Shown here in pieces: positions 2,853 to 14,831 of a stretch of DNA of 20,264 nt. Made by a program: the position numbers and the translations under genes. Below the pieces are notes generated by a model, which did no database searches, was not told the origin of the DNA, and saw nothing but the letters and a program-made list of their open reading frames with translations. The stretch is from a virus. Positions within the stretch are counted from its first letter, which is position 1; each line of letters starts with the position of its first letter. Location of the stretch: the IMG/VR virus record IMGVR_UViG_3300023119_000165, positions 1-20,264 of that record; one strand, given 5' to 3'.

Positions 2853-3038
2853 GTGAGAGAACTTTTAGATATAAGAACACCTCAACAACCAGCACACGAC
2901 CTACGACAAAGAGTTCATGAATTAAATCAAAACAAAAGAGGTGATTTTTATTCACTCTTGCCAGTCTATTGTGAAAGAAATCCTGTAGTATATTATTACT
3001 TAGTCAAGGAATATGAAACTAAATCTTATCGTTACTGA
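2853..3038 (+). CDS. Small protein of unknown function with GTG start
   Basis: The protein has about 61 residues. I place the start at GTG 2853 because AGGAG (2843-2847) lies at a good distance; reading further upstream would run through a hairpin with no ribosome site. The sequence contains ELLDIRTPQQPAHDLRQRV and ends in a tyrosine-rich tail. The ribosome site is in the loop of a possible hairpin (TCACAT 2835-2840 with ATGTGA 2851-2856), so translation may be folding-controlled. It overlaps the following gene by 26 bases in another frame. Confidence 0.55.
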   Translation: MRELLDIRTPQQPAHDLRQRVHELNQNKRGDFYSLLPVYCERNPVVYYYLVKEYETKSYRY

Positions 3039-3810
3039 AATTGACCGAAAACTTGCCACACACTTTGTTGAAAAAACACATTACTCGCCCATTATGCCAA
3101 GACTGACAAGACATTTTCTTGGGTTCTATCAAGAGAATGAATTGAAAGGTGTATTGACACTTGGTTGGGGAACAAGACCACGACACACAATTCAGAAATT
3201 ATTTCCTTCTTTGAACACCGATGATTATTTCGAAATTGGAAAGATGTGCATGGGTGATGAAATGCCAAGAAATTCTGAATCACAAATGATTGCTCAGACT
3301 GTCAAGTGGTTGAAACAATATCATCCATCAAGAATCTTTCTCTACACAATGGCTGATGGTATCATGGGCAAATGTGGCTATGTGTATCAAGCATCAAACT
3401 TTTATTATGGTGGTCAATATCTGACAATGGTTTATTTGATGCCGAATGGTGAGAAACTTCACCCTCGTTCCACAAAGAAACTTCTAATCGAAAATCAGGA
3501 ATTCTCAGGTCAGAAGAAACTTCACTGGATGACCAGAGACTTCATGAATCACAAGGGTATTCGCCTGATTGAAGGTCAGATGTTTCGCTACATCTATCCT
3601 CTGAACAAGTCTGCGAAGAGAATGATGGAGAAAGAATCCACCACAGAGTGGACAAAGAACTATCCAAAAGACCATGACTTGATTTGGTATGACAAAACTA
3701 CATTACCTAAACAGGTGATTCCAAAACCAGATTTCACATATGAGAATATGGAATTCAATCCTCAAGCACAGAAATCTTCTGAAATCAATTTGTTAGAGTT
3801 TTTCAGTTGA
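3013..3810 (+). CDS. Mom-like DNA adenine modification protein (GNAT-fold acyltransferase type)
   Basis: The protein has 265 residues. The core resembles phage Mu Mom: FLGFYQENELKGVLTLGWG (35-53), GDEMPRNSESQMIA (81-94, the D-x-x-PRN-x-ES signature), a helix ending in P105, and GYVYQASNFYYGG (122-134). The family modifies adenine in phage DNA (Mu Mom makes an acetamido-type adenine) and so protects it from restriction. The protein is longer than a minimal Mom. Its C-terminal tail ends EINLLEFFS, which resembles a T4 sliding-clamp-binding tail. The start follows AAGGA. It overlaps the small upstream gene and converges with the leftward gene at 3793 by 18 bases. The family call rests on remembered motifs and the substrate is inferred. 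Confidence 0.75.
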   Translation: MKLNLIVTEIDRKLATHFVEKTHYSPIMPRLTRHFLGFYQENELKGVLTLGWGTRPRHTIQKLFPSLNTDDYFEIGKMCMGDEMPRNSESQMIAQTVKWLKQYHPSRIFLYTMADGIMGKCGYVYQASNFYYGGQYLTMVYLMPNGEKLHPRSTKKLLIENQEFSGQKKLHWMTRDFMNHKGIRLIEGQMFRYIYPLNKSAKRMMEKESTTEWTKNYPKDHDLIWYDKTTLPKQVIPKPDFTYENMEFNPQAQKSSEINLLEFFS

Positions 3811-4491
3811 AATAATACTCTCTGCTTTTTTCTGGTCAAAATTCTCAAAGTTTTGATCAATGTATTTTAGAAACTCAATATATTGACTACGAACTTTTGA
3901 TTTTTTTGGTTCCGTGGCAAAATCAATCCAGCCAGGGTCCTCCACACTTTCACATAGATAAAAATTATTTGATATATTCTTTCTTTCATTCTCAGTGAGT
4001 GGATGATATTCATGTTGATTATTTACAGTAAGTAAAAGTATTTTTGATCTTTTAGGCAGAAGTTCCGTAAAGAACTTATGTGAAAATATATCATCACTAT
4101 AGTTTTCTTTTATGTTTTCGGATGTTACTCCTACTTCTCGCATACCGTCATGTTCTCGAGCAATTTGTCGTATGAATAAAAAATTTGTTTCTGTATCCTT
4201 TTTATATTCTTTAAATCTTTCAATTCTTCTTTGATAATCACTCAGTGTTTTTTCAACACCTCCTATCAAATGAGGCATTTTTATATTATATTTTTTTGAA
4301 TATAATATTACATTCTTTTTTTGCCATTCGCAATCGTCAAATAAATCTTGAGAACCTGTTATGAATAAATCAAGAGCCTTTTTAAAAGTCCAACTATTCA
4401 TATGATCCAAAGGATCTGATTGACCACCATAACCACATGATTTCGCCATCACCTTCCACCAACAATTACAACCTAATGATATTACTCGCAT
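3793..4491 (-). CDS. DUF1796-like putative papain-like cysteine peptidase
   Basis: The protein has 232 residues. It opens MRVISLGCNCWWKV, matching the 'SLG-x-x-C' opening of the DUF1796 family (putative papain-like cysteine peptidases), in which the cysteine is proposed as nucleophile. SDPLDHMNSW (about 25-34) sits where the family has its 'PFDW' segment. Later regions include LLTVNNQHEYHPLTENE. It is alone on the minus strand among rightward genes, overlaps the Mom-like gene tail to tail and has no obvious promoter of its own. It is more AT-rich than the ATPase gene that follows. An accessory gene acquired on its own seems likely; the peptidase activity is a family prediction only. Confidence 0.6.
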   Translation of the reverse strand: MRVISLGCNCWWKVMAKSCGYGGQSDPLDHMNSWTFKKALDLFITGSQDLFDDCEWQKKNVILYSKKYNIKMPHLIGGVEKTLSDYQRRIERFKEYKKDTETNFLFIRQIAREHDGMREVGVTSENIKENYSDDIFSHKFFTELLPKRSKILLLTVNNQHEYHPLTENERKNISNNFYLCESVEDPGWIDFATEPKKSKVRSQYIEFLKYIDQNFENFDQKKAESIISTEKL

Positions 4492-4559: not shown

Positions 4560-4644
4560 GGGGAGATTCCCGAGCGGTCAAAGGGGGCAGACTGTAAATC
4601 TGTTGGCTCAGCCTTCGAAGGTTCGAATCCTTCTCTCCCCACCA
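4560..4644 (+). tRNA. tRNA-Tyr (anticodon GTA), CCA encoded
   Basis: The acceptor stem pairs GGGGAGA (4560-4566) with TCTCCCC (4634-4640). The anticodon stem is GCAGA/TCTGT around the loop CTGTAAA, giving GTA at 4594-4596. The T arm is GAAGG-TTCGAAT-CCTTC. A long variable arm (GGCT-C-AGCC) is present, as expected for bacterial tRNA-Tyr. The discriminator A (4641) and CCA (4642-4644) are encoded. It has its own promoter about 20 bases upstream, so it can be made independently of the neighbouring genes. Confidence 0.97.
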
Positions 4645-6885: not shown

Positions 6886-7578
6886 ATGCTAACAACATTA
6901 AACATGATACCGGATTCAAATGATTCGGATATCAAATATATTTTCCCAACAACAATTATACAAACACAAATTACGGGAGATGATTTTCAATCAATCACGA
7001 AAGAAATCAATGATTCGTTAGAACACCAAAAGAGTTATATTCCTAGTAACTTCATAGGCAATTCTCCATATTTTTCAAATGGTGAAGAAACAAAAATGGA
7101 TATTGAGTCTGGAAGAGGAGTCAACCGTTCGCCAATTACTGCTAATTATATTTCTGATTATTCAATTGACACTTTAGGAAGATGTGTAAGTGAGCAGTTA
7201 AAGAAATATCTTCAAATAACTTATACAACTTTGCCTGATTATCTGTTATCAAGACTTGTTTTGAATTCATGGTTGGCAGATTATCGTGATGAAAAAACAC
7301 ATCTGCTTGCTCATCAACATGAAAATTCATTTATAAATGCTGTATATTATCATCAAGTAAATGAAAATCCAGGAGGTGAATTAGTTTTATATTCTCCAAG
7401 CTCTTATATGAGCTACATAAATCCATCTCATCAAAAAATCTTTATAAAACCAACTCAAGGAATGCTTTTAGTATTTCCCTCATGGATGCAACATGCTGTA
7501 AATTCATTTGCGTCAGATTCAAATGAAAGAAGAATTGCCATTTCAATTACATGCAGATTTGAATATCAACATGAGTAA
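6886..7578 (+). CDS. 2OG-Fe(II) oxygenase-like protein (TIGR02466 type)
   Basis: The protein has 230 residues. Family features: FPTTIIQTQI near the N-terminus, the pattern H143-x-H145 in LLAHQHENSFINAVYY, GGELVLYSP (163-171), PTQGMLLVFPSWMQHAVNSF (189-208) with H203, and R216 in NERRIAISITCRF. These fit the putative 2-oxoglutarate/iron oxygenases common in marine T4-like phages, in which iron is held by histidines on the jelly-roll fold and the arginine binds 2-oxoglutarate. The substrate is unknown; protein, nucleic acid and small-molecule targets are all possible. It overlaps the next gene by eight bases. Confidence 0.8.
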   Translation: MLTTLNMIPDSNDSDIKYIFPTTIIQTQITGDDFQSITKEINDSLEHQKSYIPSNFIGNSPYFSNGEETKMDIESGRGVNRSPITANYISDYSIDTLGRCVSEQLKKYLQITYTTLPDYLLSRLVLNSWLADYRDEKTHLLAHQHENSFINAVYYHQVNENPGGELVLYSPSSYMSYINPSHQKIFIKPTQGMLLVFPSWMQHAVNSFASDSNERRIAISITCRFEYQHE

Positions 7579-7930
7579 ACTTTCGGAGAAAGACTACGAA
7601 ACACTTCGGCATTCTGCTGAAGTGTATATGGTCAATACAATTTATGATGATTTTCATTTTCCTTTTCTTGTTTCATTTGGCAAAAAACATATCTTTCAGG
7701 AATTCTCTCATGGAGATATTCATTTAGGTGTTCTTTATCTGGAATGGCACAAGTTAGAAAATGAAAAAAGAGGATATTATAAACGTACTTGGTTCAATTC
7801 ATTTGAAGAAGCTGCTGAAAAAGCAATTGAAATTCAATCGAATAAAATTGTGAATGAAGAAAAGTTATATCGTTATCACCAATCATATTTTCAAGACATT
7901 TATAATCCACCTGAAAGGTTATATTCATGA
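7571..7930 (+). CDS. Protein of unknown function between an oxygenase and pyrF
   Basis: The protein has 119 residues from the ATG at 7571, which overlaps the oxygenase stop by eight bases; a longer reading from 7508 would lie inside the oxygenase gene. It contains VNTIYDDFHFPFLVSFGKKH, a histidine-rich middle (HGDIHLGVLYLEWHKLENEK) and a helical C-terminus. No family recognised. Its stop overlaps the pyrF start by four bases (ATGA), so the three genes are probably translated as one unit. Confidence 0.65.
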   Translation: MSKLSEKDYETLRHSAEVYMVNTIYDDFHFPFLVSFGKKHIFQEFSHGDIHLGVLYLEWHKLENEKRGYYKRTWFNSFEEAAEKAIEIQSNKIVNEEKLYRYHQSYFQDIYNPPERLYS

Positions 7931-8574
7931 AGCCTCTTGACCGAATTATATTATCACTTGATACAACTGATACGGATTATGCTAATCGAATGATTGAAAA
8001 ATATTCAGAAATAATCTATGGATTTAAGTTGAATCATTTATTGTTCAATCAACATTCACTTCTTCGTTATTCTTATACAGATGTTCCTACATTAGTTGAT
8101 TATAAATTGTTTGATATACCAAACACCATGACACATATTCTGATGGATCTGATTGACCGTGGTGTTGATATGGTGACAGTTCATATGTCAAACAGTCGAC
8201 ATGCTCTCGATTGTCTCGCAGATTATGCAGACCAAATCAAAATCTGTGGTGTAACATTGTTGACTAGTTGGACTGATGCTGATTCTCAAGCACGATATGG
8301 TAAAACTCCAGCTGAACTATATGCTGAAAGTATTGCTGAGATGGAAAAATATGGTTTCTGGGGAATGATTTGTGCGCCAACTGACCTTGAATATGCAAAG
8401 ATGGCAAATACAACTCTCAAAAAAATATGTCCTGGTATTCGCCCCAATACCTCAATCGCAACCTTGATTAGTACAGATGACCAAGTTCGTATTATGACAC
8501 CTGACCAGGCAATTGAAGCCGGAGCAGACTACTTGGTGATGGGCCGATCCTTCTATGAATATGTCAATGATTGA
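7927..8574 (+). CDS. pyrF: Orotidine 5'-phosphate decarboxylase
   Basis: The protein has 215 residues. It converts orotidine monophosphate to UMP, the last step of pyrimidine synthesis, in the cytoplasm. All active-site elements are visible: D11 in ILSLD, K34 in YGFKLN, the D58-x-K60-x-x-D63 signature in LVDYKLFDIPNT, VTVH (83-86), the phosphate-binding CPGIRP (168-173), and TPDQAIEAGADYLVMGRS (191-208) with R207. Length and motif order match the bacterial enzyme, so it should be active. The DIPNT signature argues for OMP decarboxylase rather than the related keto-gulonate enzyme. It sits in a phage operon with an oxygenase and a methyltransferase, so it is an auxiliary metabolic gene likely supplying pyrimidines for phage DNA. 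Confidence 0.93.
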   Translation: MKPLDRIILSLDTTDTDYANRMIEKYSEIIYGFKLNHLLFNQHSLLRYSYTDVPTLVDYKLFDIPNTMTHILMDLIDRGVDMVTVHMSNSRHALDCLADYADQIKICGVTLLTSWTDADSQARYGKTPAELYAESIAEMEKYGFWGMICAPTDLEYAKMANTTLKKICPGIRPNTSIATLISTDDQVRIMTPDQAIEAGADYLVMGRSFYEYVND

Positions 8575-9673: not shown

Positions 9674-10252
9674 ATGCAAGGTGAAATCTTCTTGACATCT
9701 GATACACACTATCACCATTCAAACATTTTGAAGTTCACTGATTCACAAGGAGTTCCTGTCCGTGGTGGTTTTGAAACTGTAGAAGAAATGAATGAAGCAA
9801 TGTTTGACGGATGGAATGAGACTATTCGTGAAAATGATACTGTTTACCATCTAGGTGATTTGGCGATGGGTCCATATAAGAGCAGTGATTTTGCTGAAAG
9901 ATTTCGTTCTTTACCTGGTAAGAAATACTTGATTGTAGGTAATCATGATGATATCAAATGGTGTGTGAAAAGTAAAATATTTAAAGAAGTGATGATGTGG
10001 AGAAAATTTAAAGATAAAAAAATATTGCTTTCTCATGTACCACTCGATGTGAGTAGTTTAAAAACATATGATGATGGAAGTAAAATGTTAAACTATCATG
10101 GACATATTCATCAAATGAAAAGCCCGACACCTCAACATCGTTGTGTTTGTGTTGAATGGACTAACTATAAACCAATACATATTGATGAAGTTGAACAACT
10201 TAACAACTTCATAAGATACGATTTCAATTATTATACCGAAAGTAAAGTATGA
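9674..10252 (+). CDS. Calcineurin-like metallophosphoesterase
   Basis: The protein has 192 residues from ATG 9674, chosen because AGGAGAG (9664-9670) lies just upstream and because the family starts with the first beta strand (EIFLTSD); a TTG at 9638 would add 12 residues. Metal-binding motifs appear in order: SDTHYHH (D10, H12), HLGDLA, IVGNHDD, LLSHVPLD and YHGHIHQ. These are the five signatures of the family, complete and with normal spacing, so an active two-metal phosphodiesterase is expected. Substrate unknown; phage members may act on nucleotides, RNA ends or signalling nucleotides. It overlaps the next gene by four bases. Confidence 0.85.
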   Translation: MQGEIFLTSDTHYHHSNILKFTDSQGVPVRGGFETVEEMNEAMFDGWNETIRENDTVYHLGDLAMGPYKSSDFAERFRSLPGKKYLIVGNHDDIKWCVKSKIFKEVMMWRKFKDKKILLSHVPLDVSSLKTYDDGSKMLNYHGHIHQMKSPTPQHRCVCVEWTNYKPIHIDEVEQLNNFIRYDFNYYTESKV

Positions 10253-11769
10253 AAATATCATCAATTACAATTGTTGGAAATGGTCTTGATTTGTGGATGA
10301 CATCCGCTCTTCTGCTGAAAAGATGTCCTCAATTTAAAATTAACATCATTGATTTAAAAAAAGAATCTACAGATAAAAATATTACCGTAAGTGAAATATT
10401 TTCACTCTACTCATATCTAGTAGGACTCGATGACCTAAAGTGGAAAGAAAATACAAATGCTGTATACAGAGCAGGTACTGAGTATTATAATTTTGCTCAA
10501 GAAGGTCATTATTTTTGTATGCCCAATAGTCACTATGAAATTCCAAAACCAAACAAAGATGAAAACTGGGATTTGTCACAGTTATTTGATTTAAAAAATT
10601 ATTATTCAAATAAAATAACACATAAAGACCTTCTTAATTTTATAACATATACACCATGGTTGATTGCTCAAAATCGTTTAACTGAATCTTTTGAAACAAC
10701 CAAAGACACACGAAGACCTTTTTCATTTAATGACGAGATTTCATTTTCTTTTGAGAAAAATCTTTTTGCGGATCTTCTAAAAGAAATTGCTATATCTACA
10801 GTAAATGTCTATGAGAATTCGAATCCAAATATTACTCGTAATGAAGATGGTTCAATTAAGTCAATTGATGTTGACAGTGTAACATTATACAGTGATTTGT
10901 ATATTGACCTTTCAAGTAATTCAATTTTAGTTCAAAAAGAAGAATCAAATCCTTTTTTAAAGATTGAAAAGTTTCATGAAGATTCAAAAGATGTTTTTGT
11001 CCTGCCATATCAAAGCACTTTAGAACAAGTTAAAAACGTCAAGCTGGCCGATTCAGTAGTTGGAACTGATTTTGGTTTTGCGAAAAAAATCCCGACTTGG
11101 GAAAGATGTTCATTTGAATATTTTTATAATTCAAATGAAACAAACCAGAATGAAATTGAAAAGATTATACAAGGATTTTTTGAACAAGAAGTTGAACATT
11201 CACATCAAGAAGTTGTAAATGGTACTTATGCCTTAGCTTGGTCTAATAATGTATTGTCTCTTGGTCATGCTTATATAAAACTTGAAAATAAGATTGTTGA
11301 TTCAACCTCTTATCTGATTGATTCATTAGTTTATCTTCTCAATATAATTGACAAAAATATTACGCATTATGACATTTCATTATTCAATACACATTGTCGA
11401 AGAAACTTTTTGAAAAGTATTGATAATGACTTAATTTTCAATTCGTTCTGCACAAGAAAAGGCAAGTTCTGGGAACATTATAATTCATTTGAGTATTTTA
11501 CTGAATCTGTTGAATACAATATATATAATTTATTAACAACATCAAACTCAAATATATTACCTAAAGATTTATTTTTATTACTTGGGTTTGATGTTTCTCT
11601 ATACAATAGCAAATTTCAAACGAATATAATTGCTGAGAAAAACAAAGATTTTGTGAAGTTTTTAGATTACTTAAAATTTGGATATGATCGATTTATGGAA
11701 CAAATGTTTGAAGAAGTCAAAACTTTTGAAAATGTACATGATTATACAGTAGCAAATATTTACACCTAA
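10249..11769 (+). CDS. Tryptophan-halogenase-like flavoprotein, catalytic lysine apparently replaced
   Basis: The protein has 506 residues, close to the usual length for the family. The N-terminus ISSITIVGNGLDLWMTSALL (4-23) is a Rossmann strand and glycine loop like the GGG-T-A-G-W-M start of flavin-dependent tryptophan halogenases. The region NTNAVYRAGTEYYNF (68-82) aligns with the family's 'AT-F-K-x-G-x-x-F' segment that carries the catalytic lysine; here the position is R74. No clear W-x-W-x-I-P motif is seen; the nearest candidate is FAKKIPTWERCSFEYFY (about 276-292). Such proteins occur in other marine T4-like phages. It may bind flavin without halogenating, or use another substrate. 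The call rests on fold-level resemblance. Confidence 0.7.
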   Translation: MKISSITIVGNGLDLWMTSALLLKRCPQFKINIIDLKKESTDKNITVSEIFSLYSYLVGLDDLKWKENTNAVYRAGTEYYNFAQEGHYFCMPNSHYEIPKPNKDENWDLSQLFDLKNYYSNKITHKDLLNFITYTPWLIAQNRLTESFETTKDTRRPFSFNDEISFSFEKNLFADLLKEIAISTVNVYENSNPNITRNEDGSIKSIDVDSVTLYSDLYIDLSSNSILVQKEESNPFLKIEKFHEDSKDVFVLPYQSTLEQVKNVKLADSVVGTDFGFAKKIPTWERCSFEYFYNSNETNQNEIEKIIQGFFEQEVEHSHQEVVNGTYALAWSNNVLSLGHAYIKLENKIVDSTSYLIDSLVYLLNIIDKNITHYDISLFNTHCRRNFLKSIDNDLIFNSFCTRKGKFWEHYNSFEYFTESVEYNIYNLLTTSNSNILPKDLFLLLGFDVSLYNSKFQTNIIAEKNKDFVKFLDYLKFGYDRFMEQMFEEVKTFENVHDYTVANIYT

Positions 11770-11964: not shown

Positions 11965-11993
11965 TTGACATTTGAAAAAGAATGTGATAAGAT
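11965..11993 (+). promoter_or_regulatory. Strong promoter of the coiled-coil protein and structured RNA
   Basis: TTGACA (11965-11970), a 17-base spacer and TAAGAT (11988-11993), with TG at 11985-11986. It lies seven bases after the preceding stop codon. The transcript should run through the coiled-coil gene to the terminator near 12970. Confidence 0.8.
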
Positions 11994-12037: not shown

Positions 12038-12622
12038 ATGCAAATCAATCTACGCAAAGCCTCTGCTCTTCAGTCCGACATTCAATCAATGATCCGCTCC
12101 ATTTCAGTGGATACACGTGCTTCTTTCGAAGAACGTGAAACTGTTGCTGAAGAAATGACAGAGGCCATTAACGAGTGGAGGACAAACCTGGACCGAAAAA
12201 CCGACCTGATTAATGTTCTTTTTGGTATTCGTGAAAAGGTTGGTGTTGCAAATGCTGAATGTGGCCTCAACACAAAGCTCACTGAGCATCGCCGAGTTTC
12301 CGAGCAAAAGGAGTTGATTGAAGATACTATTGATGGCCGAAGAGGCCGAATGCTCACCACTGAGCAAGTGATTGATAAACTAACCAAAATGGAAGAACGA
12401 GTTGAGAACGCCAAGGAAGCCCTCTTTGGCAGAAGCCGTGATATCGAAGTGTACACAGAACTCCTTGATAAGGAGGAGTTGGATAGCTTTCGTAAAGAAA
12501 TTCGTTCTCTCAAAAAACTTCAACGTTCAATCAATGAGGAGGTGCTTGAGCTAAATATACGCACTCACATTGTTTTATCGGAAGCGGAAGTTCAAGTTCT
12601 TAGAAACGAGGACCTGATCTGA
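12038..12622 (+). CDS. Coiled-coil protein of unknown function, probably highly expressed
   Basis: The protein has 194 residues and is nearly all helix with many charged residues, for example a heptad-like stretch EQVIDKLTKMEERVENAKEA (about 108-127). It has no membrane segment and no enzyme motif. The ATG follows AGGAG (12027-12031) at an ideal distance and a strong promoter lies directly upstream. G+C content and codon choice are higher than in neighbouring genes, another sign of strong expression. Its stop codon is directly followed by a structured non-coding RNA on the same transcript, so the two may work together. No family recognised. Confidence 0.75.
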   Translation: MQINLRKASALQSDIQSMIRSISVDTRASFEERETVAEEMTEAINEWRTNLDRKTDLINVLFGIREKVGVANAECGLNTKLTEHRRVSEQKELIEDTIDGRRGRMLTTEQVIDKLTKMEERVENAKEALFGRSRDIEVYTELLDKEELDSFRKEIRSLKKLQRSINEEVLELNIRTHIVLSEAEVQVLRNEDLI

Positions 12623-12970
12623 CGCCCAGTGGATTGTAGGTAAGAAACGGTCAATATCAGCAATATGCTGAAACACAACTACTGAAACCTCCAAACTGGT
12701 TGTCAATGTTTTCGGGATAAGGTCTTGGCGGACCTTCTTTGTTTATTTGCTCCCGAAGTTAGACCATTGTTTAAATGTTAGCATTGTTCATTGCTGCCTT
12801 CGGGTTATGTTGTTTTGTTTCGTTGACACGCCTCATTTACAATCCACACCCAAAGACATTCGAATAGGGAATCCTAGCAGATGCTCCCAGTATAGCTTAC
12901 GAACGGCCAAGAGCATGGTACAAGTAGAAGTCTGGCTGCGAAGATTCCCTATTTGAGTGTCTTTTTTATT
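12623..12970 (+). ncRNA. Structured non-coding RNA of about 350 bases, two domains
   Basis: No credible gene exists here. Domain 1 is closed by the 10-base-pair helix GTGGATTGTA (12629-12638) with TACAATCCAC (12838-12847). Inside are CAGCA/TGCTG (12658-12670), AAGGTC/GACCTT (12719-12736), and two competing 7-pair helices that share one strand: 12711-12717 with 12751-12757, or 12752-12758 with 12798-12804. Domain 2 is closed by a 22-pair helix (12852-12873 with 12943-12964, two G-U pairs) and holds ATGCTC/GAGCAT (12881-12886 with 12911-12916). A T-rich tract follows, so the RNA ends near 12970. It is probably cut from, or ends, the transcript started at 11965. I see no match to tmRNA, RNase P RNA, a group I intron or a retron. 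The helices are visible directly; function is unknown. Confidence 0.75.
12852..12970 (+). terminator. Terminator-like long hairpin at the end of the structured RNA
   Basis: The 22-pair closing helix (12852-12873 with 12943-12964) is followed by TTTTTTATTTT (12962-12972), part of which takes part in the helix. The layout is that of an intrinsic terminator whose loop has grown into a 69-base domain. It separates the early transcript from the late promoter at 12991. Confidence 0.65.
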
Positions 12971-12990: not shown

Positions 12991-12998
12991 TATAAATA
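12991..12998 (+). promoter_or_regulatory. T4-type late promoter
   Basis: TATAAATA is an exact match to the T4 late promoter, 36 bases upstream of the first gene of the arginine-dyad / spanin / gp33 cluster and just after a terminator. Presence of a gp33 gene in the same cluster supports use of this promoter type. Confidence 0.75.
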
Positions 12999-13033: not shown

Positions 13034-13507
13034 ATGACAAATATAATTCACGACCGAAGAGATCCTCATGAACGTCGAGTAACACATGACCGGCGAGAAG
13101 AAGAGGAAGATAATTTTTATACAGACCAAAGAAGAGAAGAACGAAGAAGTGACAAAGACCGTCGACAGTTGACAAGAAGGACTCAACATGACCGTCGAGT
13201 TCAAACTGTGACAGTTACAAATGACCGTCGAAAGTCTTCACGAAGATTTACAGATGCTGCTCAATTTCAAGAAGCATTGTCAGTAAAATCTGAAGAAGTG
13301 AATTTAGAAGCGTTACCTGATTGGGTGAGTGGTACATTACAAGAAGCTGAGAAAAGAAGGGCTGAACAGCCAGCATTGTCACCACCTCCTGTAGATATGA
13401 CCGGATCAGAAAACAAAGAAAAGTATTTTGATGTGTGGGTGATCACAGTTACACTAATTATTCTTTTATGTTTTATAGGAGCAGGTTATATATTTTATTT
13501 TACTTGA
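13034..13507 (+). CDS. Arginine-dyad (DRR/ERR) repeat protein with C-terminal membrane anchor, copy 1
   Basis: The protein has 157 residues. Residues 1-71 hold ten RR dyads, five of them as DRR (for example IIHDRRD and QHDRRVQ), spaced four to twelve residues apart. A middle segment (72-130) is acidic and then proline-containing (PALSPPPVDM). A single membrane span (about 133-155) ends two residues before the C-terminus, so the arginine-rich part should lie in the cytoplasm. There is no signal peptide. The gene is first after a T4-type late promoter, ahead of methyltransferase 2 and then a similar gene. Arginine-rich cytoplasmic tails may bind DNA, RNA or membrane lipids. A lysis role (holin-like) is possible because spanins follow, but unproven. 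No family recognised. Confidence 0.7.
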   Translation: MTNIIHDRRDPHERRVTHDRREEEEDNFYTDQRREERRSDKDRRQLTRRTQHDRRVQTVTVTNDRRKSSRRFTDAAQFQEALSVKSEEVNLEALPDWVSGTLQEAEKRRAEQPALSPPPVDMTGSENKEKYFDVWVITVTLIILLCFIGAGYIFYFT

Positions 13508-13521
13508 GAAAAAGATTATGA

Positions 13522-14451
13522 ATGTCAGCAAAATTACCTGTAGATATTACAACTGAAGAGATTATAGCATTAGATTTTCGTTATTCTTATACAAATTCAG
13601 AATTATATAAAGATTGGCAGAAATTACAAAACACAATCTTATATAAAACAGGTTCTCAATTCAAACCAGGATTGAAACTTTGTCAGCACTTTTTTCCTAA
13701 CTTCTGGAAAATCGAAAATTCGAAAGGATTATCTTTTGAAAAATGTTGGCAAGATCGAACATTGATGAAGAAAATTCATGAATGGGGTTTGAATTCAATG
13801 AGTTCTCTATGGCTCTCATGGATTCGCAGAGCCGTATACCTAGCGGGTGGTTTACCAAACTCATCTTATTACCGTCCGCATTTTTCTAAACAAATCATTG
13901 AGCAATTTGCAAAAAAGAAAAATGGAATCTTATTTGATCCTTGTGCTGGTTGGGGCGGGCGTATGCTCGGAACTGTGGCTGCTGGCTGGTCTTATGTTGC
14001 ATGCGAACCGAATCGAGAGACGTATGAGAATTTATCAAAACTGATTGATTTTCTTGACATCTCGAATTCTGTTACACTACATAACATACCAGCAGAGAAG
14101 TTTACCTATGACCAAAAGGTGGACATTGTTCTTACATCTCCACCTTACTTCAACCTTGAAATATATACGAGAGACTTAGACCAATCGTATCATCGTTATC
14201 TTGAATATGAAATTTGGAATGAAAAATGGTTTCGGCCATTGATTGAAAATTCAATGTCAATGCTGAATGAGAATGGTCTTTCTTGCTGGAATGTAATGAA
14301 TTTTGGCAAACAAGACCTTGTTGAAACAGTCATTGATGTTCATGTAAAAAATAATTATCGCTATCTTGACCGTGTTGGTTTTACAAGTCCTCTTGCGAAT
14401 ATAAGAAACCTTAAAAATAAAGATGTTACTTATATTTACCAAAGGATTTAA
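13522..14451 (+). CDS. DNA methyltransferase 2 (paralogue of the 8567-9595 gene)
   Basis: The protein has 309 residues. Domain order matches methyltransferase 1: FRYSYTNSELYKDW (19-32), LKLCQHFFPNFWKIENSKGL (51-70), motif I FDPCAGWGGRM (138-148), CEPN with E162, and catalytic VLTSPPYFNLEIY (203-215). It is shorter at both ends and lacks the LEIFS-type tail. An ancient duplication or two separate gains of the same family would explain the pair. The first gene is in an early-type operon and this one is in the late cluster, so they may act at different times. Start ATG 13522 has only a weak ribosome site. Its stop overlaps the next start (TAATG). Confidence 0.85.
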   Translation: MSAKLPVDITTEEIIALDFRYSYTNSELYKDWQKLQNTILYKTGSQFKPGLKLCQHFFPNFWKIENSKGLSFEKCWQDRTLMKKIHEWGLNSMSSLWLSWIRRAVYLAGGLPNSSYYRPHFSKQIIEQFAKKKNGILFDPCAGWGGRMLGTVAAGWSYVACEPNRETYENLSKLIDFLDISNSVTLHNIPAEKFTYDQKVDIVLTSPPYFNLEIYTRDLDQSYHRYLEYEIWNEKWFRPLIENSMSMLNENGLSCWNVMNFGKQDLVETVIDVHVKNNYRYLDRVGFTSPLANIRNLKNKDVTYIYQRI

Positions 14452-14831
14452 TGTTAGACGAATATGAAATCAAACTAAATGAGAAATCAAGTAGATTTTT
14501 ATATGATACAAAGAATGCTGACCGAAGACAATATGTTCAGCGAAGAGCAACATCAGTAAGAAGAGAATTAGCAGACCGCCGACGTGAACAGCTTGCGGTT
14601 GATATTGAACGAAGAAAAGAACAAAGACGAAAGTTAAATGATCGAAGATTCTTTGAAGAGAGAAGAGTTACTTCAAATTACTCTCAAGAAAGATTAGAAG
14701 AAGAAAGACGAAAGCTTGAATTTCGAAAAAGTGGAGATGCTCCTTTTTATGTGATTGCATTTGTTTTTCTTGGACTTTTACTTTCAATGGGATATTTTTT
14801 ATACACTGAATTTATAACTAATTATGTCTAA
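14451..14831 (+). CDS. Arginine-dyad repeat protein with C-terminal membrane anchor, copy 2
   Basis: The protein has 126 residues. Nine RR blocks occupy residues 25-87 (NADRRQYVQRR; ADRRREQ; IERRKEQRRKLNDRR; LEEERRKLE), mixed with many glutamates, so the segment may form a long charged helix. A single membrane span covers about 98-118, followed by a short outer tail (TEFITNYV). Layout and composition match the protein at 13034-13507, although alignable identity is low. The start overlaps the methyltransferase stop (TAATG) and the end overlaps the oxygenase start by eight bases, so it is embedded in a coupled late operon. Function unknown. Confidence 0.7.
   Translation: MLDEYEIKLNEKSSRFLYDTKNADRRQYVQRRATSVRRELADRRREQLAVDIERRKEQRRKLNDRRFFEERRVTSNYSQERLEEERRKLEFRKSGDAPFYVIAFVFLGLLLSMGYFLYTEFITNYV

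Follow-up and report, generated by a model that had tools for sequence, protein, structure and literature searches.

What fills a gap of 411 bases in a phage genome, and does it belong with the gene in front of it? The window that we analyzed is the whole 20,264-nucleotide stretch of IMG/VR virus record IMGVR_UViG_3300023119_000165, in which a coiled-coil gene ends with its stop codon at 12622 and the next ORF starts at 13034. A sequence-only reading had placed a single structured RNA of about 350 bases in a gap of over 400 bases, at 12623-12970; it had described a 10-pair closing helix and a 22-pair helix with a terminator-like end, recognized no known large RNA, and suggested an RNA-protein system with the coiled-coil gene. 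The coordinates and the gap held. The features to which we refer below are as follows.

11965-11993, + strand: sigma-70-type promoter, TTGACA-N17-TAAGAT, upstream of the gene; 10 of 12 matches, with TG preceding the second hexamer
12038-12622, + strand: coiled-coil gene, founder of the family; 194-aa all-helical protein with the N-terminus MQ[IV][NT]LRKA... and no Pfam name
12623-12850, + strand: structured RNA, the core element, kept in close relatives at the identities given below; a homologous stretch is found in the family's complete loci
12629-12641, + strand: P1 5' arm in the predicted fold; P1 covaries across the family
12752-12758, + strand: P6 5' arm, CCCGAAG (the TTGCTCC helix, P6 of relatives); covaries in relatives
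12779-12826, + strand: UUG(C/U) array region, degenerate in the window subfamily, with full arrays in relatives
12798-12804, + strand: P6 3' arm, CTTCGGG
12835-12847, + strand: P1 3' arm in the predicted fold; P1 covaries across the family
12852-12964, + strand: 22-pair hairpin with a T-run behind it; a separate, replaceable element
12991-12998, + strand: T4-type late promoter motif TATAAATA, read from the sequence

Two elements in the gap

The closing helix, GTGGATTGTA at 12629-12638 pairing with TACAATCCAC at 12838-12847, is present in the window and is lengthened to 13 pairs (12629-12641/12835-12847) in the predicted fold. The 22-pair helix (12852-12873/12943-12964) is also present, with TTTTTTATTTT directly behind it; both helices of the sequence-only reading therefore held. 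The 5' arm of P6 competes with an upstream pairing at 12709-12718. None of 100 dinucleotide shuffles folds as stably as the whole stretch (z = -3.2); for the first RNA by itself, z is -2.8, and the median for related RNAs is -3.3 (n = 22). Fold stability by itself is weak evidence, however, and it is covariation in relatives that is strong.

Comparison with relatives shows that the gap does not hold one RNA of about 350 bases; this part of the earlier claim failed. The close IMG/VR relatives L001-L003 match the window throughout the locus. In L007, L008, and L024, the promoter, the gene, and the first RNA are kept, with a quite different hairpin behind and other neighboring genes, and in L026-L028 there is no hairpin after the RNA and the next gene comes directly. 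Because three loci swap the hairpin and three others lack one, we define the core element as 12623-12850 and treat 12852-12964 as separate. The hairpin is likely a 3' end or terminator, or else an accessory structured element. The window hairpin and the one that starts at 3861 in L024 are unrelated in sequence and built alike, each being a long, nearly perfect stem under a loop that is branched or possibly pseudoknotted; they could represent a second family of exchangeable RNA elements. Within the window group, the RNA has changed less than the gene: identities to the window are 100% (RNA) and 88% (gene) in L002, 91% and 87% in L003, and 96% and 80% in L024.

The promoter hexamers TTGACA and TAAGAT are retained in L001-L003 and L008; in L007, the second hexamer is TAATAT. 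A late promoter motif like TATAAATA has been described for T4 and CBB-like phages (PMC5259590), and here it likely starts the next transcription unit, that of the ORF at 13034. We rejected a protein-coding explanation of the gap, as the 69-aa ORF at 12747-12956 is absent from relatives such as L024. Elsewhere in the window, we noted two DRR/ERR-repeat-rich proteins with a hydrophobic C-terminal segment and no Pfam match (13034-13507 and 14451-14831), a Mom-like DNA modification protein (3013-3810), a 2OG-Fe(II) oxygenase (6886-7578), an orotidine 5'-phosphate decarboxylase (7927-8574), and a tryptophan-halogenase-like protein (10249-11769).

Covariation and a phased UUG(C/U) array

The closing helix P1 covaries clearly in relatives. 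In A6, comprising 11 related RNAs, 90.8% of cells are paired in the helices P5, PA, and P6, and the covariation score is 0.533 compared to 0.199 in shuffles (0/500), with slid controls at or below 0.153. In A8, comprising six enterobacterial and Xanthomonas phages, 97.6% of cells pair, the score is 0.360 versus 0.165, and 7 of the 12 P1 pairs are changed on both sides. Covariation is thus found in two independent subfamilies and supports the closing helix and four internal helices.

We also compared how well each strand pairs with its own partner and with partners swapped from other members. Own versus swapped pairing was 1.00 versus 0.51 for P1, 1.00 versus 0.63 for P5, 0.98 versus 0.68 for P6, 1.00 versus 0.88 for PA, and 0.97 versus 0.70 for P3. 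The window strands GTGGATTGTA/TACAATCCAC are one among 15 distinct P1 strand pairs. This test is alignment-free, but its strands were picked by eye from predicted folds, so we take it as supporting evidence beside the alignment counts; P3 was tested only in this way because the first MAFFT alignment misaligned the variable 5' half. A hairpin that RNAalifold placed inside the UUG array of A5 (TTGTGGCCTGC/GCAGGTTGC) was dropped, since compensatory changes were nearly lacking (one pair, in 2 of 11 rows). The PA helix, which uses the same TGGCC, does covary. The resulting architecture is a P1 closure around two or three hairpins and nested helices, with PA around P6.

A covariance model, R1, trained on the 11 RNAs of one subfamily, found matches at the right place in divergent members: L028 (3e-7), L046 (1e-5), and the Caulobacter phages CcrPW (0.004) and CcrColossus (0.006). 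On G001, a window-like record, the match lies in the right place and is weak (E = 0.38). This weak R1 match leaves position, P1, the TTGCTCC motif, and intermediates (L026 and L028, for example) as the basis for assigning the window RNA to the family. We conclude that the RNA is genuine and is part of a family not described so far.

Behind PA, most members carry UUG(C/U) at constant spacing. Across 21 non-redundant RNAs, there are 74 TTG pairs at lag 7 where 5.4 are expected (z = 29), and 53 at lag 14 where 5.3 are expected. In the enterobacterial and T5-like Vibrio phages, the lag is exactly 8 (28 versus 1.8, z = 20), with none at lag 7. Between relatives, UUG changes less than the spacers do, 0.056 versus 0.209 per site (p = 2.6e-6). 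Coding sequence or a DNA iteron is unlikely because a period of 7 does not fit codon triplets and the spacing does not correspond to a DNA helical repeat.

The main blemish is the window itself. Most other members, including the nearest outgroup, L026/L028, have four or more motifs in phase at 7 or 8 nt. The window subfamily does not reach this; the window region has just two in-phase heptads and a few loose UUG. Perhaps the array is not needed everywhere, or it may have a different role there.

The RNA and its linked gene

To follow the family beyond the window, we searched with a protein profile, which gave 36 IMG/VR loci; protein relatives occur in about 40 IMG/VR contigs overall, and also in phages that have been cultured. 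Searches with tblastn added Vibrio phage 2.275.O, Brevundimonas jumbo phages, and Caulobacter phages CcrColossus and CcrPW. A fold search pointed to Vibrio phage Vp_R1 and Erwinia phage pEa_SNUABM_47, both confirmed by the protein profile (1.4e-11 and 3.3e-14, respectively). Further relatives reached were Serratia BF, Cronobacter GAP32, Pectobacterium CBB, Kaldavass, XbC2, Klebsiella fENko-Kae01, Salmonella Munch and other Salmonella phages, SJSY21, and Vibrio PG07. The protein profile gave no match in phiCbK, RaK2, Atu_ph07, or LR756504. An N-terminal pattern found no relative in one-per-species bacterial genomes, a negative limited by the pattern, and a DNA similarity search in phages returned chance matches only.

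In every complete locus inspected, a stretch of 200-290 nt with a closing helix adjoins the gene on the same strand, as the window RNA adjoins its MQ[IV][NT]LRKA helical-protein gene. The RNA usually lies behind the gene; in L029, L032, and L033 it lies in front, always on the same strand. A small gene separates the two in L032 and L033. The one in L033 (2733-3002) belongs to the RNA polymerase omega/Rpb6 family (PF01192, 3e-9), and a very similar ORF occupies the same place in L032. In L043, gene and RNA are separated by an unrelated insert of ~340 nt (3567-3910), apparently structured and non-coding. Rfam gave nothing for this insert even at E = 5, and we ruled it out as a group I intron or other known RNA on that basis. 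A stable extra hairpin often stands between the stop codon and P1 (L013, L030, L039, L041, L043, L046, L052, L111, and L113-L115), and might be a processing site. Terminators lie behind the RNA in Vibrio phage 2.275.O (GCCACCCTAGGGTGGC-T8) and in L125 (CCCCGATTCGTCGGGG-T7).

Linkage was also tested from the RNA side by scanning IMG/VR with two DNA patterns made from the array alone. Of 21 stretches found, 19 have the protein gene directly upstream, and one is on a contig cut within the gene's last codons (PTKLTLQEEGLV*). The remaining stretch, L134, was rejected as a chance repeat (9 bits with R1, in GC-richer repetitive DNA). The RNA-only scans thus gave 20 genuine RNAs, 19 behind the gene and one on the gene-truncated contig. 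These results show that the RNA is obligatorily linked to the protein gene across unrelated phages. The suggestion of an RNA-protein system is supported by this linkage, which persists even with the order reversed; there are no binding or transcript data.

The protein itself gives few clues. AlphaFold2 predicts a confident helical bundle (mean pLDDT 89.6) whose sole sheet is formed by strands at 2-4 and 177-179. We found no convincing family in Pfam, no convincing relative in a PDB fold search (best 3kdq, E = 0.02), and no known RNA-binding fold in either search. The protein is not strongly basic, with a pI of 5 to 9. Proteins with a similar fold are present among giant-virus entries in BFVD, A0A1V0SA40 from Catovirus (E = 8e-7) and A0A5K0UAD2 from Yasminevirus (E = 3e-5); both binning errors and true homology remain possible. 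The homologue in fENko-Kae01, ENKO_435, is annotated as 'identified with LC-MS/MS analysis'. That sample was a 300-kDa filter retentate and, according to its authors, contains all proteins in complexes above that size, beyond virion proteins (PMC11218385); it held phage particles too, which is a caveat on the detection. The text of the CBB paper (PMC5259590) does not mention CBB_382.

Known RNAs, rival explanations, and the proposed system

The claim that this is no known large RNA held. An Rfam 15 search at gathering thresholds of the window and 20 loci left the RNA without a match (tmRNA, 6S, ROOL, OLE, HEARO, introns, and others), as did permissive E-value searches of the window region (E up to 10), of L043, and of 10 additional loci. 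We found no tRNA-like domain with a tag peptide that would indicate a tmRNA; the only tRNA that ARAGORN reports in the window is tRNA-Tyr at 4560, and the Rfam search likewise found this tRNA only. The 416-position covariance model of GOLLD (RF02032) at 150 bits does not match the RNA in the window or relatives, and true GOLLDs a few hundred bases from the module score 182-214 bits. GOLLD identity is ruled out: GOLLD and the new RNA can stand side by side.

GOLLD does occur nearby: seven of the 36 records contain it, and in each of these, two of them records of ~360 kb, it lies 0.14-1.7 kb from the module. The records concerned are L030, L036, L037, L038, L039, L043, and Vibrio phage PG07 (L118, 648-1065). 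In most relatives, tRNAs flank the module, a phage tRNA-island location shared with GOLLD. GOLLD is an RNA of unknown function, reported to lie near tRNA islands, to increase during lysis, and to form cages from RNA alone (PMC12286853). The proximity could be explained by the clustering of tRNA-island cargo, without a functional link.

Several known systems offer partial likenesses. GOLLD and the new RNA are both large, structured, of unknown function, and sited in phage tRNA islands; the new RNA is half as long and differs in its phased UUGY array and its linked protein family. ROOL is also a phage-encoded, ornate RNA near tRNA islands (PMC12286853); in contrast, it is about 600-660 nt long, has no known protein partner, and gave no Rfam match here. 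OLE resembles the proposed system as a structured bacterial RNA with dedicated protein partners (OapA and others), but these include the membrane-associated OapA (PMC12286853), whereas the protein here is a soluble-looking helical bundle; OLE likewise gave no Rfam match. The trp RNA-binding attenuation protein, TRAP, is an oligomer that binds short motifs at constant spacing, a parallel only in how it works. TRAP recognizes (G/U)AG repeats that follow each other every 5 nt or so in a leader, whereas the new RNA has UUG(C/U) every 7 or 8 nt in a closed structure, and the Pfam search found no sequence relation between TRAP and the helical protein. The new RNA is not described in the open-access literature that we searched and, to our knowledge, no described RNA has a closed structured core together with a UUGY array phased at 7/8 nt and a dedicated protein. 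RNA and protein thus lie outside every family tested, in a setting where large phage RNAs of unknown function are already known (GOLLD, ROOL).

We favor, with moderate confidence and without binding or expression data, an undescribed phage ribonucleoprotein family in which the helical protein binds the RNA cotranscribed with it. The structure of the RNA, supported by covariation, the phased array, and the linkage to the protein gene are shown; cotranscription from an early promoter, binding, and the role of the array are inferred. In this model, an early host-type promoter would produce a message that carries the gene for a helical bundle of ~190 aa and ends in, or rarely begins with, the structured RNA of 200-290 nt. 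In most members, the RNA would present a single-stranded UUG(C/U) array, with motifs 7 nt apart in the majority of lineages and 8 nt apart elsewhere. The protein or its oligomer would bind the RNA, the phased UUGY motifs serving as a series of docking sites that fix the register of the oligomer, and the complex would act early in infection on a final cellular target that is unknown.

Could the RNA instead be a cis-acting UTR that acts on the coiled-coil message, controlling its stability or its translation (through autoregulation, for instance), and not a separate partner? In its favor, the RNA usually starts right after the stop codon on the same strand, and in some phages a terminator follows. 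Against it, the element can stand on either side of the gene, and is separated from it by the omega-type gene in L032 and L033 and by the ~340-nt insert in L043; its size, its conservation above that of the gene, and its elaborate array would also be unusual for a 3' UTR. We consider this unlikely. Alternatively, the RNA might act alone on a host or phage target, for instance by titrating a host protein through the UUGY array, while the protein merely shares the early module or tRNA island. The array does resemble a titrating sponge, and the module shares the tRNA-island surroundings of GOLLD, for which cages made of RNA alone have been reported (PMC12286853). Linkage to one protein family is essentially complete across unrelated phages, however, while other neighbors change, and this makes a lone RNA improbable as well.

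The least plausible of the alternatives is that the stretch functions as DNA, for instance as an origin or a packaging site, its repeats being iteron-like. Origins too have short direct repeats at fixed spacing. Yet the long, interrupted helices show compensatory changes, including G-U pairs, the strand is fixed relative to the gene, terminators lie behind, and the spacing is 7 or 8 and not the DNA helical repeat; we regard this explanation as very unlikely.

A bolder version of the ribonucleoprotein model treats the RNA as a molecular ruler in a widespread phage complex: phased UUG(C/U), at 7 or 8 nt by lineage, would order a defined number of copies of the helical protein into an oligomer in early infection, perhaps together with the GOLLD RNA of the same tRNA islands. 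We put this forward tentatively, with our own judgment leaning against it.

If the ribonucleoprotein model is true, the pair would constitute a new RNA class with a dedicated protein partner. Because it is spread over jumbo myoviruses, Caulobacter and Brevundimonas siphoviruses, and T5-like Vibrio phages, the RNA-protein pair is probably important to phages. Several of the bacteria infected are standard in the laboratory, which puts the RNA, the protein, and their binding within reach of experiment. A phasing that is constant at 7 or 8 nt translates into a sharp prediction about mechanism, and the close neighborhood of GOLLD would give a first genetic handle on an RNA whose function has long been unknown.
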